A stretch of DNA of 64,000 bases from Paraflavitalea pollutisoli (GTDB taxonomy: Bacteria > Bacteroidota > Bacteroidia > Chitinophagales > Chitinophagaceae), in the NCBI RefSeq assembly GCF_029360705.1, contig NZ_JARKMX010000014.1:868001-932000 (forward strand), read 5' to 3'. Below, one piece after another: positions 4,341 through 53,343 of this stretch. The notes below the pieces were generated by a model that saw nothing but the letters and a program-made list of their open reading frames with translations, had not been told where the DNA came from and made no database searches. Every line of letters begins with the position of its first letter. The first letter of the stretch is position 1. A program made the translations under genes and the position numbers.

Positions 4341-5441
4341 TTATTTGCTGACCGTAAATTTCTTGCTCGCCAACTCTACCCCGTTAATAACAATGGCTAG
4401 GGTATGCTGACCCGCATAGTGCTTGCGGGTGGTAAGGTCTCTGAAGGACTGGGCACGTTTAAATACAACCGGCTTACCGGGTTGGTAGGTATTTTCTGTG
4501 ATCTTAAATAATTTCCGGCTTCCCTTGCCACCCGACTTGACATAGTCGATACCATATTCTACCCTCAGCTTGATGGGTTGATCTCCCTTATTGATCAGCT
4601 CAAAGGTGAAATGCAGGGAATCTCCTATTCCGATGCTCTTATCGGTGATCCTGAGTTTATCAACGACTACTTTGTCGGATACTGCCAGGCCAAACAGCTT
4701 CATGGCTTGCGGATTGGCTTTACGCAACAAGGTCCGGCTACCATGTTTGATGATCCAATCGGTGCGGGGTGAGTATCCCTGCCACCGTCGTACAATAGCC
4801 AGTACGATATCAGGATTATCCTTAACGATATCATTCAGGTTATTAGCAACACTCTTGCGTACAAACTCTGCAGGATCGTCCTTTAGGTTCTCCAGGATGG
4901 GTAGTATGGGCGTCGGATCTTTTTTCAAGGCCGGCAGGGCCATGGCCCAGGGCAGACGCGGCCTGCATCCTTCACTTGAAAGCCGGCGCACGTGCAAACT
5001 CTCGTGCTTGGACCACTTAAGCAGCTGTTTCATGGCTTTCGCAGGATAGCGCACAATGAAGGGGCGGACAGCGAATTCACAACTGATGAACTGTGTGATG
5101 AATTCGATCGCTTTCATGGAGATGTCGTAATGCTCGATGCCGTACTTTTCTACATATTCCGTCAGGAACATATGTTCCAATCCACCGCGACCGCCCTCTT
5201 TGAGAACAGCCTCAATAAATGCATATAGCTGCTTTACTGCCTGCTCATAGGTTGGCGGCATGAACTGGTGTAACGTTTCGGCTATATGCTTCATACGCGC
5301 TTTCAATTCGCGCGCTTCCCATTCGTCGTCATGTATCTTTTTAAGAAATTGTTTCTTATCGAAGCCTTTGAGGGTTTTGCCAAGTATGCTGGTCAGCTTG
5401 TTGAAAAAGGTATCGTTGTAGAGGTTCTTGAATGGTTCCAC
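4341..5441 (-). CDS. DNA alkylation repair protein, AlkC-like (HEAT-repeat DNA glycosylase)
   Basis: A 366-residue soluble protein. Residues about 40-260 are helical repeats of the AlkC/AlkD type, with 'DPAEFVRKSVANNLND' and the family signature region 'WIIKHGSRTLLRKANPQA'. Residues about 268-366 form a beta-rich, Ig-like C-terminal domain, which is the feature separating AlkC from AlkD. The family excises cationic alkylated bases such as 3-methyladenine from DNA without base flipping. The start is a GTG at 5441; no closer ATG fits. It is monocistronic, 59 bp from the downstream end of the phosphotriesterase-family gene. Confidence 0.82.
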   Translation of the reverse strand: MEPFKNLYNDTFFNKLTSILGKTLKGFDKKQFLKKIHDDEWEARELKARMKHIAETLHQFMPPTYEQAVKQLYAFIEAVLKEGGRGGLEHMFLTEYVEKYGIEHYDISMKAIEFITQFISCEFAVRPFIVRYPAKAMKQLLKWSKHESLHVRRLSSEGCRPRLPWAMALPALKKDPTPILPILENLKDDPAEFVRKSVANNLNDIVKDNPDIVLAIVRRWQGYSPRTDWIIKHGSRTLLRKANPQAMKLFGLAVSDKVVVDKLRITDKSIGIGDSLHFTFELINKGDQPIKLRVEYGIDYVKSGGKGSRKLFKITENTYQPGKPVVFKRAQSFRDLTTRKHYAGQHTLAIVINGVELASKKFTVSK

Positions 5442-46276: not shown

Positions 46277-46777
46277 ATGGCATTCAATCTTCGTGCATAC
46301 AAAAAGACCATGTTGCTCAACCGCAGTTCTTTCCGGCGCTTTCTTACCAAACTGGAAAAGACCCCACCCCGGCGGCTGGATCAACTCGCTGTAGAAACCG
46401 ATGTGGAAGTATGGAAGGAAACGGATTGCCTGGCCTGCGCCAATTGCTGCAAGACCATGAGCCCTACCTTCACTCCCGCCGATATGAAACGTATCGCCAA
46501 CCACCTGGAGATGGGTGTTGAGGACTTTAAAAAGAAATGGCTGTACAAAGACCGTAATGGAGATTGGGTCAACAAGAACCAACCCTGTCAGTTCCTCAAT
46601 CTCAAGGACAACAAATGTTCCATCTATGAAGTGCGGCCGGCCGACTGCTCCGGTTTTCCGCACCATACCAAGCGTCGCATGGTCGACTATATCCACGTGT
46701 TTAAGCAAAATGTTGAATACTGCCCTGCTACCTACAAGCTGGTAGAGAAGATGATCGAAAAGGTGAAGACCAAGTAA
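46277..46777 (+). CDS. YkgJ-family cysteine-cluster (zinc/iron-chelating) protein
   Basis: A 166-residue protein with the YkgJ cysteine pattern: 'DCLACANCCK' near 50-60, later 'CQFLNLKDNKCSIYEVRPADCSGFPHH', and a last Cys in 'EYCPATYK'. The cluster is thought to bind zinc or an iron-sulphur centre; biological role unknown. It lies 3 bp before xerD and is very probably in one transcript with it. Confidence 0.85.
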   Translation: MAFNLRAYKKTMLLNRSSFRRFLTKLEKTPPRRLDQLAVETDVEVWKETDCLACANCCKTMSPTFTPADMKRIANHLEMGVEDFKKKWLYKDRNGDWVNKNQPCQFLNLKDNKCSIYEVRPADCSGFPHHTKRRMVDYIHVFKQNVEYCPATYKLVEKMIEKVKTK

Positions 46778-47794: not shown

Positions 47795-48847
47795 TTATTG
47801 AATAACCAGTTTGGACTGGTATACTTCTTTTTCGTGCTGACTGGTAATGCGCATCCAATACACCCCATGACTCCAAAATGATCGCGTCACCAATGTCAGC
47901 GCCTGCGGAGATTGCACCACCTGCAAGGCCTGCACATGTACCTGTCGACCGGCCGCATCCAGCAACTCCAGTTTGTATTGCCCCCTTTGCTTCAGCTTCA
48001 GGGATACCGTTACCGTTCCTCCGCCAGCTACCGGATTTGGATACAGGGTAATACTTTTATTTCCAGGTAACCAGCCCGATATTGTTTTCTTAGCCAGTTC
48101 CACTGGCGACTCTTCTACCACCACAGCAACCTCCCCCACCCAGCTGGCATCATCAACCAATACCGCTGCTGAATTATGCTCGCTGACCACTTCCTCCAAC
48201 TCAATGTCACGTACGATAAGTGAATCCGTGTTTATCGTACCGGCTGTATCAGTGACTAAAAATTGCCTGATAGTGTCTACCACTTCAAGAGCTGGCTTCC
48301 CTACAACACACGATTCAGGTATACCCTGGTACGCTACAATACTGATTCCCCCTGTTACCGCGTATTCAGTCATCACTACACCCGTTGTTCCGATCAACAC
48401 TTCGACAGGCGGTTGCTTGGCCGCGTACCTCAACGCCATTTCCTGTAAAGAAGGTTTATTGATCGCGTGTGAAATACTCCAGAACGGCTTATCCGCTTTG
48501 ATCGTAGTCGGCATAACTTCACCTAACATATAATCCCCAGATTGTGCAGAGGCTGGCTGGCCCGAAAGCAACAATGCGCCTGCAAGTACACTCCAGCCAT
48601 AAGCGAAAGCAAAAGATCGTTTCGGCTTTTCAGTACGATAACTTTTATTCAACTGGTGGTTATGAAATCGACCACATACCGACGAAGTCGCCTGCTGCAT
48701 ATAGGTCAGCACTTCCTGATCACTCATGTTGGTGAAATCGACTACGATCTTTTGACAGGAACTGCAGTGACGACCACGATCCTGGGGTACCATCTGCTGC
48801 CAGTTTTCATGACAGGGTGAAGGAATACTGAGATGTAGAGCAGGCAT
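47795..48847 (-). CDS. Four-cysteine domain / T9SS sorting domain protein, copy A
   Basis: A 350-residue protein with an unusual order. Residues 1-65 are a soluble domain with Cys12 in 'PCHENWQQM', Cys28 and Cys31 in 'GRHCSSCQK' followed by 'VVDFT', and Cys58 in 'VCGRF'. A hydrophobic segment with a signal-peptidase-like end ('VLAGALLLSGQPASAQS') follows at about 78-101. The middle is unrecognised, and the last ~85 residues are a T9SS type A sorting domain ('ITLYPNPVAGGG', 'LELLDAAGRQVHVQAL', 'GVYWMRI', ending KLVIQ). The ATG at 48847 is used; the upstream extension has no shared sequence with copies B and C. The N-terminal domain is widespread in Bacteroidota but has no function known to me. 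First gene of the trio from the xerD side. Confidence 0.8.
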   Translation of the reverse strand: MPALHLSIPSPCHENWQQMVPQDRGRHCSSCQKIVVDFTNMSDQEVLTYMQQATSSVCGRFHNHQLNKSYRTEKPKRSFAFAYGWSVLAGALLLSGQPASAQSGDYMLGEVMPTTIKADKPFWSISHAINKPSLQEMALRYAAKQPPVEVLIGTTGVVMTEYAVTGGISIVAYQGIPESCVVGKPALEVVDTIRQFLVTDTAGTINTDSLIVRDIELEEVVSEHNSAAVLVDDASWVGEVAVVVEESPVELAKKTISGWLPGNKSITLYPNPVAGGGTVTVSLKLKQRGQYKLELLDAAGRQVHVQALQVVQSPQALTLVTRSFWSHGVYWMRITSQHEKEVYQSKLVIQ

Positions 48848-48939
48848 AAGCGTTGGGTTTGATGATAAGATGCAACCGCCGCATAATTCCACACAACAAT
48901 CCTGCTTGATGTCATTACCGAACCAGGTAGCCGCTGTTT

Positions 48940-49956
48940 TTATTGCAGCACCAACTTGGCGTGGTATATTTTCTTGTCGGTCAGGCCCCTCACCCGCACC
49001 CAATAAATGCCTCTACTCCACGAAGATTGGGTGGGTACATTCATCACTTGTGCAGGTTGTGTCACCTGCAGGGCCTGTACATGTACCAGGCGTCCACCTG
49101 CATCCAGCAATTCCAGTTTATATTCACCGGTCGTTTTAATATTCAATGTCAGCTTTACGCCACTACCTACAGTTGCAGGATTGGGATACACCGTCACTGA
49201 CTTTTTCCCGGGCCATAGATCAATCACGGCACGCTCCACCTTATCCAGCATGGTGACGCTGTGCACGATCGATACGGCACCGCCTCTACCACATCCTCTC
49301 CTGTTTCCGTAAGCAATCACACTTACCGCTTCCATTTGCGAACTGGTAGGCGCCAATACAAACTCCGTCGGCAACTCTTCCCCTACTTTCAATATATATT
49401 CCCTTTTATCGTATCCCACGGCACTGATTTCCAGTAATGCCGATTCCTTGTTGGTGAGGTCTGCAATCCTAAATTCTCCCTTCTCGTTGGCAGCGGCAAC
49501 CGTTCCGACGCCAGCAATAGTTATGCTGGCATGGGCAATGGGCTGTTTTGTCCTGCTATCCAGTACAATGCCACTACAAGTACTTGCCGGTCCTTTACGT
49601 GCAGGTTTGCACAAGGGAGCTTCGATAAGCTGCGCCACTTTACCCGTTTGCGCTGTCAGGTCCTGGCTCATCAACAACAAGCCACTGACGAGCGCACTCC
49701 AGAAATATCGAAAAGAAAAGGAAGGCCGGGCAGTGCCTTCAATCATGTTCCTGTTCAGCTGATCATCATCCAAACGACCACAAACCGTGGTTGTCGCTTT
49801 GGACAAAAAGGCTAGAACTTGTTGGTCACTCATCAGCGAGAAATCTATGACCGTTTTCTGGCAGGCCCCGCAATAACGTCCCTGCTCTATTGGCGTCATC
49901 TGTTGCCAGTTTTCGTGACATGGTGTAGGAATGTCGATGTGTACAGATCTTTTCAT
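48940..49956 (-). CDS. Four-cysteine domain / carboxypeptidase-regulatory / T9SS protein, copy B
   Basis: A 338-residue paralogue of copies A and C. Cys13 is in 'PCHENWQQM', Cys29 and Cys32 in 'GRYCGACQK' followed by 'TVIDF', and Cys59 in 'VCGRL'. The export segment is about 75-98 ('LVSGLLLMSQDLTAQTG'). Unlike A and C, it has a carboxypeptidase-regulatory-like beta domain (about 115-205, 'CSGIVLDSRTKQPIAHASI') before the T9SS sorting domain ('VTVYPNPATVGSG' to 'AKLVLQ'). Start at 49956 matches the aligned N-termini. It reads toward copy A, 92 bp away. Confidence 0.8.
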   Translation of the reverse strand: MKRSVHIDIPTPCHENWQQMTPIEQGRYCGACQKTVIDFSLMSDQQVLAFLSKATTTVCGRLDDDQLNRNMIEGTARPSFSFRYFWSALVSGLLLMSQDLTAQTGKVAQLIEAPLCKPARKGPASTCSGIVLDSRTKQPIAHASITIAGVGTVAAANEKGEFRIADLTNKESALLEISAVGYDKREYILKVGEELPTEFVLAPTSSQMEAVSVIAYGNRRGCGRGGAVSIVHSVTMLDKVERAVIDLWPGKKSVTVYPNPATVGSGVKLTLNIKTTGEYKLELLDAGGRLVHVQALQVTQPAQVMNVPTQSSWSRGIYWVRVRGLTDKKIYHAKLVLQ

Positions 49957-50063
49957 ACGCAATTGCTTTCTTACTGGATGCAATGTCAGCAGCACTTACA
50001 CAATCGATATAAAATTTTGTACGATAAAACAACTACTACCGGTCGTCATTACCTGCACAGGAG

Positions 50064-50885
50064 CTATTGAATAATTAGTTTTGCTTCCTGAATCTTTTTA
50101 CCGGCGCTGGTTACCCTGGCCCAATACAACCCTTTGATCCAGGAACTCTGTACTGGCACCGAAAAGGTTTGCCCCGAGTAGGCAATTTGTAACCCCTGCA
50201 CATGCACAATACGACCGGCCACATCCATCAATTCCAGTTTATAGAAGCCTGGGTAAAACGCCTCCGTTTTCAAACTTACATAGCCACCCGCTTGCGCAGG
50301 ATTGGGATAAAAGCTTATATTCTTTTTAAAGGGCAACCAATCGCCAAGCGTATTGAAGGCACGGGAGACATGGTCAGCAGGTGAAGTCAACTCCCTCGAT
50401 ACTACAAAACCGAGGGTGACAGTTTCAATTCCTGAATTGCGGATAAGCGCCAAGTGGGTAAAATCGGCCATCGACTCAACATTAAGCGCTGGCAATTTTA
50501 TGTTTTGCTTGGATTTCTTTTTCCCGGGCGGCTTGCAGTCTGCAACGACTATTTCCCCCTGCTTCACGGTAGCCGTTTGCCCCGACACATCACTGGCTGT
50601 CATCAGCCACCCGCCCACCAATACACTCCAGGCGTAATTGAAATTAAACCGGCGTTTCGGCACCTGGTCCCGGTAGGTTTTATCGAGTTGGTCATTGCTG
50701 AATCGCCCGCACACTCCGGTAGTTGCCTCACGGAAATAGGCCAATATAGCCTGATCGCTCAGCTGGGTAAAATCGACCACCGTTTTCTGACAAGCCCTGC
50801 AATAACGGCCTTGCTCGTTGGGCGTCATGTGCAGCCAATTTTCGTGACAGGGTTCGTCGATGTTGATATGCAGGGGGTTGGGCAT
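50064..50885 (-). CDS. Four-cysteine domain / T9SS sorting domain protein, copy C
   Basis: A 273-residue paralogue, the shortest. Cys13 in 'PCHENWLHM', Cys29 and Cys32 in 'GRYCRACQK' then 'TVVDF', and Cys59 in 'VCGRF'. The export segment 'SVLVGGWLMTASDVSGQT' is at about 80-97, and the linker is short and Lys-rich ('KPPGKKKSKQN') before a T9SS sorting domain ('ISFYPNPAQAGG' to 'AKLIIQ'). ATG at 50885 is preferred to a TTG two codons upstream. It is divergent from the ECF sigma gene, with 114 bp between starts. Confidence 0.8.
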   Translation of the reverse strand: MPNPLHINIDEPCHENWLHMTPNEQGRYCRACQKTVVDFTQLSDQAILAYFREATTGVCGRFSNDQLDKTYRDQVPKRRFNFNYAWSVLVGGWLMTASDVSGQTATVKQGEIVVADCKPPGKKKSKQNIKLPALNVESMADFTHLALIRNSGIETVTLGFVVSRELTSPADHVSRAFNTLGDWLPFKKNISFYPNPAQAGGYVSLKTEAFYPGFYKLELMDVAGRIVHVQGLQIAYSGQTFSVPVQSSWIKGLYWARVTSAGKKIQEAKLIIQ

Positions 50886-50999: not shown

Positions 51000-51599
51000 G
51001 TGGCCTTCCTTAAGAACATACAACAGAATGATTTACCAGATAAAGAGCTGGTAAAAATGTTCCAATCCTCCGGTAACCTGGAGGTGCTGGCCATCCTTTT
51101 TCAGCGCTATATGGACCTCCTGTATGGGGTTTGCCTCAAATACATGCCCGATTCGGAATCTGCCAAAGATGCTGTAATGCAGGTGTTTGAGGAGCTGGTA
51201 CAGAAGTTGCCCAAACATGAAGTGGAGAATTTCAAGAGCTGGCTGTATGCCCTGGCAAAGAATTACTGCCTGATGCAGCTCCGCACACCGAAAAATCTGA
51301 AAACCACCGAATTTAACCCCGACAGTGTGCAATCGGCAGAAGAAATGCATCTACAGGGTGTAAACCTGAAAGAGGAGAATCTCCAGAAAATGGAAAGATG
51401 CCTCGACACACTTTCCCGGGAGCAACGCGATACCGTGAAACTGTTTTACCTGCAAAACAAATGTTATAAAGAAATTGCAGATATAACAGGCCTGGATTGG
51501 AATAAAGTACGGAGTTATATACAGAACGGGCGGAGAAATCTGCGGATCTGTATGGAAAAGGTAGAAGAAGAAAGTAGCTTGCTTAAAATAAAAACTTAG
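51000..51599 (+). CDS. ECF-type RNA polymerase sigma factor
   Basis: A 199-residue sigma-70 family member with region 2 (about 22-90, 'LFQRYMDLLYGVCLKYM', 'DAVMQVFEEL', 'FKSWLYALAKNYCLMQLR') and region 4 (about 130-185, 'LDTLSREQRDTVKLFYLQNKCYKEIADITGLDWNKVRSYIQNGRRNL'). Such factors direct transcription of surface-function genes when released by an anti-sigma partner. The start is a GTG at 51000; TAATTTTA just upstream resembles a -7 element so closely that the transcript may be nearly leaderless. The next gene starts 7 bp after its stop and is the probable anti-sigma factor. Confidence 0.88.
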   Translation: MAFLKNIQQNDLPDKELVKMFQSSGNLEVLAILFQRYMDLLYGVCLKYMPDSESAKDAVMQVFEELVQKLPKHEVENFKSWLYALAKNYCLMQLRTPKNLKTTEFNPDSVQSAEEMHLQGVNLKEENLQKMERCLDTLSREQRDTVKLFYLQNKCYKEIADITGLDWNKVRSYIQNGRRNLRICMEKVEEESSLLKIKT

Positions 51600-51606
51600 T
51601 TTGTTC

Positions 51607-53343
51607 ATGTCCGCAACTGACCATACGAAACATTATTCAGCAGCTGATATCCAGCGGTATCTCGCCGGCGAATTGTCGCCTGCCGAAATGCATGCTCTGG
51701 AGCTGGCTGCCCTGGATGATCCTTTCCTGGCGGATGCCATCGAGGGCATGCAATTAACCATTGCGCAACAAAGCAAGGCCCCTATCGATACCCACCTCCA
51801 GGAACTGCACCAAAGGTTGCAGGAGCGGGTTGCTGGTGAAGACCGCCGCCAGGTGGCCCCCGTCATTGCCTTCCGCTGGTGGCAAGCCGCCGCAGCCGCT
51901 GCTGTGGTCATTATCGGCGGTATCTGGTATTTCAATAGCACCAGCGATAGCCGTACTCATTTACAGCCGGTAGCGGCAGTAGAGAAAACAAAAGATGTCA
52001 ACCCGGAAAGCGTGGCTCCCCAATCGTTCATGGCAGACTCTTCGGTAGCTACTAATCAGGTGTTGACCGACTCCTTGCTCCCCCCGGGTATGTTGGCGAA
52101 AGAAACAGAAAGTTCAGCGGGGATAACCAGCCAAAAGTCCGGGTATGCAATTTCTGAGAACGCGCTGGAGAACAACGCTTCCAAAAAGGCCATAACACCA
52201 CCTGCCATGGCTTATTCGCCACTCCCCAAGCCGTCCAAATCTCAAACCGAAGCAAAGATCCTTACACAAGAAAATCAGCTGGTAGCCGCCGAAAAATCGG
52301 AACAACCAGCCGCAATACTCAACAAGCAGACCTATCAGCCTACCATGGAAGATAGCATGCGCTTGGCTTTCGCGCCCAAAAAGGCCTTGTCCAGCCGCAA
52401 CCAGGCCAATTTATCGAATACCGCCATATCTTCCAATGCAACCCGGCCAGGTGATTTTGAACAGATAATCGTCGGCAAAACACCACGGGACACGTCCGCA
52501 GCGGGATTCCTGAGCAAGCCCCGCGAGCGTGAAATGAATTTATCGCGCAGAGAGCTCAGCGCCCGGCAGGCAAAGAAAAATCCCGATGCACTGCTGAGCG
52601 GTTTTGTCAGTGGCCGGGTGACCGATAATGCCACCAATAGCCCGATCTCCAATGCACTACTCCGCATCGATGGCAAAAGGGATTATTTTACCGATAACAA
52701 AGGTTGGTTCAAAATTCCGACCAATGATTCGGTGGTCAATGTAGCAGTGGGCACCTCCGGTTACTATACCCAGAACCTGCAACTCAATAACCATAGCAGC
52801 AATCTGATCAGCCTGAACCAACTGGGCGACAAAGCCCCCAATCCCCAACTCAATTTCAATGGCCTCCAAGGGAAGGTGGCTGGCGTTCAGGTGGAACGGG
52901 AATTTGCGGGTGATTCAGCAGCTGTCGCTTCTTTTAAAAACACGTTCCACAACGATTCAACGGGCGATTACCGGACCAAATTGGCATCCAGGAAAAAGGA
53001 AATGCAGATTGGATATGGCTACGCTTTTGATAAGCAGGCCGAATCAGCCGCACAACGGTCATCCAGCCTTAAAATGACCAACGCAGAGCCCGAATACGGC
53101 TGGCTCAAATACCAACAATACCTCGATCAAAACAAACGCCTGCCGGAAAACGGTACTGCCGGGGCCGGCAAAGTAGTAGTAGCCTTTGAAGTGGATAAAA
53201 AGGGCGTACCAGCCAATTTCCTGGCCATATCCTCCCCCGGCCAGGCTTACTCCGACGAAGCCGTTCGCCTTATCAAGGCAGGTCCCTCCTGGAAGCTGCT
53301 CAAGGGCCGTAAAGCAAAAGTTACCGTGGTCGTTACATTTTAA
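51607..53343 (+). CDS. Anti-sigma-like / carboxypeptidase-regulatory / TonB C-terminal fusion protein
   Basis: A 578-residue inner-membrane protein. Residues 1-55 form a cytoplasmic anti-sigma-like helix bundle ('DIQRYLAGELSPAEMHALEL', 'DDPFLADAIEGM'); one membrane helix is at about 92-110. A long low-complexity periplasmic linker follows, then a carboxypeptidase-regulatory-like domain (about 330-405, 'SGRVTDNATNSPISNALLRI') and 'LQGKVAGVQVERE', which copies the SusC plug motif. The last ~85 residues are a TonB C-terminal domain ('GKVVVAFEVDKKGVPANFLAI', 'SPGQAYSDEAVRLI'). It probably holds the ECF sigma factor and senses envelope or TonB-dependent transporter state. No HxxxCxxC zinc anti-sigma motif is seen. 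Confidence 0.8.
   Translation: MSATDHTKHYSAADIQRYLAGELSPAEMHALELAALDDPFLADAIEGMQLTIAQQSKAPIDTHLQELHQRLQERVAGEDRRQVAPVIAFRWWQAAAAAAVVIIGGIWYFNSTSDSRTHLQPVAAVEKTKDVNPESVAPQSFMADSSVATNQVLTDSLLPPGMLAKETESSAGITSQKSGYAISENALENNASKKAITPPAMAYSPLPKPSKSQTEAKILTQENQLVAAEKSEQPAAILNKQTYQPTMEDSMRLAFAPKKALSSRNQANLSNTAISSNATRPGDFEQIIVGKTPRDTSAAGFLSKPREREMNLSRRELSARQAKKNPDALLSGFVSGRVTDNATNSPISNALLRIDGKRDYFTDNKGWFKIPTNDSVVNVAVGTSGYYTQNLQLNNHSSNLISLNQLGDKAPNPQLNFNGLQGKVAGVQVEREFAGDSAAVASFKNTFHNDSTGDYRTKLASRKKEMQIGYGYAFDKQAESAAQRSSSLKMTNAEPEYGWLKYQQYLDQNKRLPENGTAGAGKVVVAFEVDKKGVPANFLAISSPGQAYSDEAVRLIKAGPSWKLLKGRKAKVTVVVTF

Follow-up and report, generated by a model that had tools for sequence, protein, structure and literature searches.

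A conserved four-cysteine domain precedes a displaced, signal peptide-like segment in a tandem trio of putative type IX secretion cargo proteins from Paraflavitalea pollutisoli

Ordinary cargo proteins of the type IX secretion system (T9SS), with sorting tails of the TIGR04183 or PF18962 type, start with a signal peptide. Long signal peptides with a second domain that may have a role of its own occur in viruses, and to our knowledge no long eukaryotic or viral signal peptide contains a conserved globular fold. The vertebrate signal peptides of the NtraC model, of 40 residues or more, are also reported to have a second domain with a possible role of its own (PMC2447879). Autotransporters and two-partner secretion proteins have an extended signal peptide region (ESPR), a conserved stretch of about 25 residues before the Sec signal, for which a role beyond targeting has been proposed (PMC2805444). 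Here we analyse three tandem genes, copies C, B and A, in a window of 64,000 nucleotides from Paraflavitalea pollutisoli (Bacteroidota; Chitinophagaceae; contig NZ_JARKMX010000014.1, positions 868,001 to 932,000 of the forward strand), the predicted products of which start with a four-cysteine (Cys4) domain, followed by a hydrophobic segment and, at the far end, a T9SS tail.

Like the ESPR, the Cys4 domain is a conserved extra stretch ahead of a putative Sec signal, but it is a predicted fold of about 70 residues with four near-invariant cysteines, and it is found in the Bacteroidota together with both signal peptidase I and signal peptidase II type sites. The family does not fall within the ESPR, given the size of the predicted fold and its presence on proteins with T9SS tails, TonB C-terminal (TonB_C) domains or carboxypeptidase-regulatory-like (CarbopepD) domains. 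Unlike the NtraC-type signal peptides it is bacterial, and its domain also exists as a stand-alone protein. Membrane anti-sigma factors share the layout of a cytosolic head, a hydrophobic segment and an extracytoplasmic CarbopepD_reg or TonB_C domain, but the segment of the trio has a signal peptidase type site at its end, and the Cys4 head matches no anti-sigma profile. No description of the domain was found in the literature searched, and the family apparently represents a long bipartite signal peptide on a domain family undescribed so far.

The three genes are arranged in tandem on the minus strand, each with an ATG start and a stop codon, and have the following features (positions in the window).

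50064..50885, minus strand: copy C, 273 aa, with Cys4 domain, linker, displaced signal peptide, middle and T9SS tail (open reading frame (ORF), profile, AlphaFold2)
50676..50885, minus strand: Cys4 domain of copy C, residues 1-70, Cys 13/29/32/59 (alignment, AlphaFold2)
50577..50660, minus strand: linker and displaced signal peptide of copy C, residues 76-103, ending ...DVSG/Q at the putative cleavage point
50067..50309, minus strand: T9SS type A sorting tail of copy C, residues 193-273 (TIGR04183)
48940..49956, minus strand: copy B, 338 aa, laid out like copy C with CarbopepD_reg_2 in the middle (ORF, Pfam, NCBIfam)
49747..49956, minus strand: Cys4 domain of copy B, Cys 13/29/32/59 (alignment)
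49648..49731, minus strand: linker and displaced signal peptide of copy B, residues 76-103, ending ...DLTA/Q (alignment)
49318..49575, minus strand: CarbopepD_reg_2 of copy B (PF13715, E 6.1e-13)
48946..49191, minus strand: T9SS type A sorting tail of copy B (TIGR04183, E 2.8e-7)
47795..48847, minus strand: copy A, 350 aa, laid out like copy C with a longer middle (ORF, NCBIfam)
48641..48847, minus strand: Cys4 domain of copy A, Cys 12/28/31/58 (alignment)
48542..48625, minus strand: linker and displaced signal peptide of copy A, residues 75-102, ending ...PASA/Q (alignment)
47798..48046, minus strand: T9SS type A sorting tail of copy A (TIGR04183, E 3.2e-8; PF18962 above cut-off)

Over the N-terminal 103 or so residues, identity to C is 55% for copy A and 51% for copy B (57% for both over the first 75); beyond this the middles diverge, and the final 80 or so residues are similar again. 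No signal peptide is located at the extreme N-terminus of the trio. Instead, a basic linker connects the Cys4 domain to a hydrophobic segment with its core at residues 85-97 in C and B and 82-94 in A, and the segment ends in SG-Q (C), TA-Q (B) or SA-Q (A). The Q-rule pattern of signal peptidase I fits A (S-A-S-A/Q) and C (D-V-S-G/Q), while the site in B (L-T-A/Q) is weaker, with Leu at -3, and fails the search pattern used. All three tails pass TIGR04183 (cut-off 23 bits; E 4.5e-8 in C); PF18962 (cut-off 27 bits) is passed by A alone, with B (26.1 bits) and C (26.7 bits) narrowly short. The original prediction, made from the sequence, had described three adjacent paralogues with a common N-terminal domain, cysteines near positions 12, 28, 31 and 58, a hydrophobic segment about 80 residues in with a signal peptidase-like end, variable middles, T9SS tails, and a carboxypeptidase-regulatory domain in copy B alone. 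These features were all recovered, with the cysteine positions exact in A and one residue later in B and C. The predicted fold of the copy C tail resembles the T9SS C-terminal domains 8qb1 and 8glk as well as many Ig-like domains at equal Z, and the middle of this copy, modelled with low confidence, is probably disordered. The T9SS machinery is encoded in the same genome, as indicated by SprA, the component searched (SprA_N, PF14349, E 1.1e-152), together with at least 109 T9SS tail matches, 108 of them above the cut-off; the copy C tail is not among the matches listed.

The trio apparently belongs to a larger, undescribed family. When the genomes of 84,980 species were scanned with two peptide patterns taken from the three copies, which distant relatives would escape, 139 relatives were obtained, the best 80 of which were retained, representing 79 loci with titles that by our reading are all from the Bacteroidota. 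In a search of 395 sampled Bacteroidota genomes with a profile of the three N-termini, 54 were positive, our own included, and a 72-sequence profile also gave 54; since relatives are so widespread, the domain is more than a chance feature of the trio. Each positive genome has 1-5 matches, and in P. pollutisoli the profile search found no match besides the trio. Tandem arrays are seen at many loci, and contain as many as six copies (L019) or five copies (L060). The 186 unique matches were reduced to 179 parsed proteins, after seven had been dropped because they were short, open-ended or lacked the cysteine pattern. In existing plasmid records, relatives are annotated as "carboxypeptidase-like regulatory domain-containing protein" or "energy transducer TonB", and one is unannotated. 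At L087/L145 (G387), an in-frame stop separates the Cys4 domain from the signal-peptide part and leaves a 72-residue domain ORF, which may be a broken gene or a natural split.

The cysteines are close to invariant. Counted on 213 unique rows at E 1e-5, with no filter on cysteines, they are kept in 210/211 (C13), 213/213 (C29), 213/213 (C32) and 211/212 (C59) rows, and other near-constant residues are W17 (206/211), M20 (208/213), G26 (210/213), D38 (212/213) and Q66 (209/211). The median ratio of nonsynonymous to synonymous substitution rates (dN/dS) was 0.11 for the domain, 0.17 for the linker and signal and 0.26 for the remainder, as estimated from 45 usable pairs of 82 close pairs that are not mutually independent. 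AlphaFold2 predicted residues 1-75 of copy C alone with a mean predicted local distance difference test (pLDDT) score of 86, and residues 11-70 in the full-length protein with block means of 94-96. The predicted domain consists of a hairpin with CxxC at the turn, a helix at residues 44-53 and a short strand that starts with Cys59, and in the full-length model a separate helix of 15 residues (82-96) follows outside the domain fold. Given the invariance of the cysteines, the domain probably holds one zinc.

We found no match to a characterised domain. No Pfam or NCBIfam profile scored above cut-off for the N-terminal domain of the trio (the best weak Pfam match was zf-Tbcl_FmdE, E 0.16), no PDB sequence matched at E below 0.026, and a Foldseek search of the PDB with the 75-residue model gave no match at E <= 0.001, a search in which small domains are easily missed. 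Among 131 relatives, no recognisable profile for the domain was present in the 25 most-matched families listed, out of 32 in Pfam and 36 in NCBIfam. Most of those listed represent downstream parts, including CarbopepD_reg_2 (85), Por_Secre_tail (36) and TonB_C (12); the others are weak or single-member matches.

Several observations suggest that the hydrophobic segment behaves like a displaced, cleavable signal peptide. When the best 13-residue core was sought 5-52 residues after the fourth cysteine, it started within residues 75-95 in 178/179 proteins and had a hydropathy of 1.2 or more in 165/179. By loose patterns of our own making, an AxA-Q-type site follows in 99/179 and a lipobox in 40/179, compared with 5.8% and 1.7% of 4892 background windows elsewhere in the same proteins. 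At a hydropathy of at least 2.0, a site is present in 62/71 family segments but in only 12/124 internal segments of other genes, and at 1.5 or more in 117/148 family segments against 127/223 N-terminal segments of other genes, the latter from crude gene calls. A Gln immediately after the site is seen in 99/139 members without a lipobox (71%), and a value of about 71% is given for signal peptidase I substrates of the Bacteroidota in PMC10653852. Since the segment is signal peptide-like, the domain is expected to remain cytosolic, with two proteins probably produced from one gene.

Natural variants without the domain are consistent with this. In six genomes (L152, L155, L156, L159, L160 and L172; the start in L155 is unsure), a directly adjoining paralogue lacks the Cys4 domain, has TonB_C (6/6, each over 110 bits), matches the family body from the hydrophobic core onward (E 2e-59 to 2e-43) and has an ordinary lipoprotein signal at its N-terminus. 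In the L152 sibling, the first residues are retained and the sequence then resumes in the linker, just ahead of the same hydrophobic segment. The domain-less L051 (ORF ~4367-4999) has an ordinary N-terminal signal ending in GWSQ, and its body is 81% identical to L038:4265-4999, a member with a truncated domain; this pair is a natural domain loss in the signal peptidase I class. These domain-less proteins indicate that the segment can act as a signal peptide alone and that the domain is dispensable in such bodies.

The domain is also found without the segment. A 107-residue protein on the Calothrix brevissima plasmid AP018211 (34224-34547), annotated as "hypothetical protein" and reached via the divergent member L193, scores 45.6 bits with the family profile, as compared with 12.2 for the best of 2000 shuffles. 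All four cysteines are present and a hydrophobic segment is absent (13-mer maximum 0.92), which indicates that the domain can exist as a soluble protein. Neither the Calothrix nor the L193 protein has a Pfam match for the domain above cut-off. L193 (G254) has an extra DGTMxxxDCP motif after the fourth cysteine and resembles the Calothrix protein, a likeness that suggests a wider superfamily beyond the Bacteroidota.

The type of site follows the downstream part and its destination. T9SS tails are present in 37/179 relatives. Of the remainder, some have a lipobox followed by TonB_C, some have a carboxypeptidase-regulatory-like domain, and some have none of these. All 16 TonB_C members have a lipobox, whereas AxA-Q sites predominate in the T9SS members (28, with lipobox in 2 and neither in 7) and in the carboxypeptidase-regulatory-like members without a tail (AxA-Q 56, lipobox 3, neither 30). 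The phylum-sample loci, with 57 proteins from 53 genomes, gave lipobox 26, AxA-Q 24 and neither 7, with a lipobox in 15/15 TonB_C proteins, a set that overlaps with the 179. On a domain tree of 155 rows, which is poorly resolved, the downstream class changes at least 24 times and the peptidase type at least nine times. The proposal in the original prediction that one gene may give a cytosolic domain and an exported protein is supported at the sequence level, but the T9SS is not its essence. Of the three findings named there as grounds for refutation, a profile hit to a characterised domain, a segment buried in a fold and a true start just before the segment, none emerged from the profile searches, the structural model or the dN/dS and start-codon comparisons. 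Carboxypeptidase-regulatory-like relatives without a T9SS tail, for example L043, L083, L049 and L056, have a short basic-aromatic C-terminus (FFGRIFHxIGNIFR or FFQRLKEKLF), perhaps an amphipathic membrane or sorting helix.

We favor the hypothesis, with a probability of roughly 60%, that these genes encode two-compartment precursors that are cut by signal peptidase, with the Cys4 half kept in the cytosol as a regulatory head. The first 70 or so residues would fold in the cytosol as a small Cys4 domain, and the basic linker and Sec signal peptide, at about residues 78-103, would insert with the N-terminus inside while the remaining chain is exported. The cut would be made after the hydrophobic segment by signal peptidase I at AxA-Q-type sites or, in other members, by signal peptidase II at a lipobox, and the exported half would become a T9SS cargo protein in the trio, or else a lipoprotein with TonB_C or a periplasmic protein of the carboxypeptidase-regulatory-like type. 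SecYEG would not let a folded domain of about 70 residues through, and T9SS tails require a protein that is freed into the periplasm; for these reasons cleavage is expected in the trio. The Cys4 half would remain a small cytosolic protein, either still anchored through the spent signal helix or released by a later proteolytic step. It most likely serves as a regulatory head, dependent on metal or redox state, that reports on how its own precursor is made and exported or gates these processes. The sequences support the conservation of the domain, the displacement of the signal peptide and the extracytoplasmic nature of the downstream parts, and we infer the metal, the cleavage and the role of the cytosolic half as a regulator rather than waste. 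We put forward tentatively a more specific version that would hold across many Bacteroidota. In this version signal peptidases would be processing enzymes that divide a bifunctional precursor, and the Cys4 metal domain, made strictly one to one with an exported partner (a surface protein, periplasmic protein or lipoprotein), would be a cytosolic worker, with export sensed or controlled via the signal-peptide remnant.

A few observations speak against this hypothesis. No conserved partner gene was found among 96 neighbour proteins, in which no Pfam family occurs in more than four, and as a consequence we infer the regulatory role. The steady position of the core is partly built in, because the search range was fixed. 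Neither type of site is present in 40/179 members, including 7/37 T9SS members (copy B is one of these seven because Leu at -3 is disallowed in the pattern), and L015 and L068 have no plausible site by eye. In 131 of the 179 proteins the linker has more positive charge than the far side of the segment, in 15 the two are equal, and in 33 the linker is the less positive. Finally, in some pairs, such as L018/L023, the domain is not the slowest part by dN/dS.

One rival explanation is that the Cys4 domain is a pilot and itself belongs to the export signal. It would fold in the cytosol, slow insertion or recruit a factor toward a particular Sec or signal recognition particle route, much as has been proposed for the long signals of autotransporters, and then be degraded with no other role. 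The domain precedes the hydrophobic segment in all 179 parsed members, and the long signals of autotransporters have an extra N-terminal part as well (PMC2805444). Against this, an ordinary lipoprotein signal is retained in the six adjoining TonB_C paralogues that lack the domain, the Calothrix homologue stands alone without a hydrophobic segment, median dN/dS is lower for the domain than for the signal region, and there are only 1-5 matches per positive genome. We consider it unlikely, but it remains a real rival.

We also considered the possibility that the proteins are uncleaved bitopic receptors, in which the segment is a permanent anchor and the Cys4 domain signals for the outer domain in an anti-sigma-like manner. 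TonB_C domains are often found in anchored proteins, and in the neighbouring protein at 51601-53343, CarbopepD_reg-like and weak TonB_C matches follow an N-terminal region in which we read a cytosolic head and a membrane segment by eye. However, T9SS tails require periplasmic release, all TonB_C members have a lipobox, the predicted helix is just 15 residues long, and sites are far more frequent in the family than in internal hydrophobic segments of equal hydropathy (62/71 versus 12/124), which makes this arrangement improbable.

It is almost certainly not an annotation artefact, with the true start just ahead of the hydrophobic segment and the upstream frame unused, since even though an ATG is present within the 25 codons before the segment in 46/179 members (ATG, GTG or TTG in 118/179), 133/179 have no ATG there, and median dN/dS is lowest (0.11) in the upstream frame, which also has near-invariant cysteines and a confidently predicted AlphaFold2 fold.

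The genes that surround the trio in the window include the following.

51000-51599, plus strand: extracytoplasmic function (ECF) sigma factor, divergent to the trio (Pfam)
51601-53343, plus strand: likely anti-sigma protein with CarbopepD_reg-like and weak TonB_C matches in its outer part (Pfam)
46277-46777, plus strand: CxxCxxCC putative zinc/iron-chelating protein (PF03692)

A related ECF sigma gene is present in the fetched flank at 12 loci, which to judge by the organisms are all from the Chitinophagaceae or near, and this may be synteny only; a relative of the PF03692 protein is found in the flank of eight loci. At L157, L158, L164 and L167, the family gene is directly preceded on its strand by a lipoprotein gene, the product of which is by our reading perhaps a glutamine cyclotransferase, an enzyme that acts on the Gln exposed by signal peptidase I. 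Glu_cyclase_2 (Pfam) was identified in 3/96 neighbours of other loci, and this link to the family may also reflect synteny.

Our findings add a Cys4 domain family for which no existing profile was found in Pfam or NCBIfam. In 54/395 sampled Bacteroidota genomes, a conserved predicted fold occupies the n-region of what would be a signal peptide, coupled to sites of both signal peptidase types. Genes in which the signal is located near residue 80 may be misread by predictors that look for it at the very start of the protein. If the cytosolic half has a role of its own, the family would provide an example from bacteria of a signal-peptide domain that functions after cleavage.

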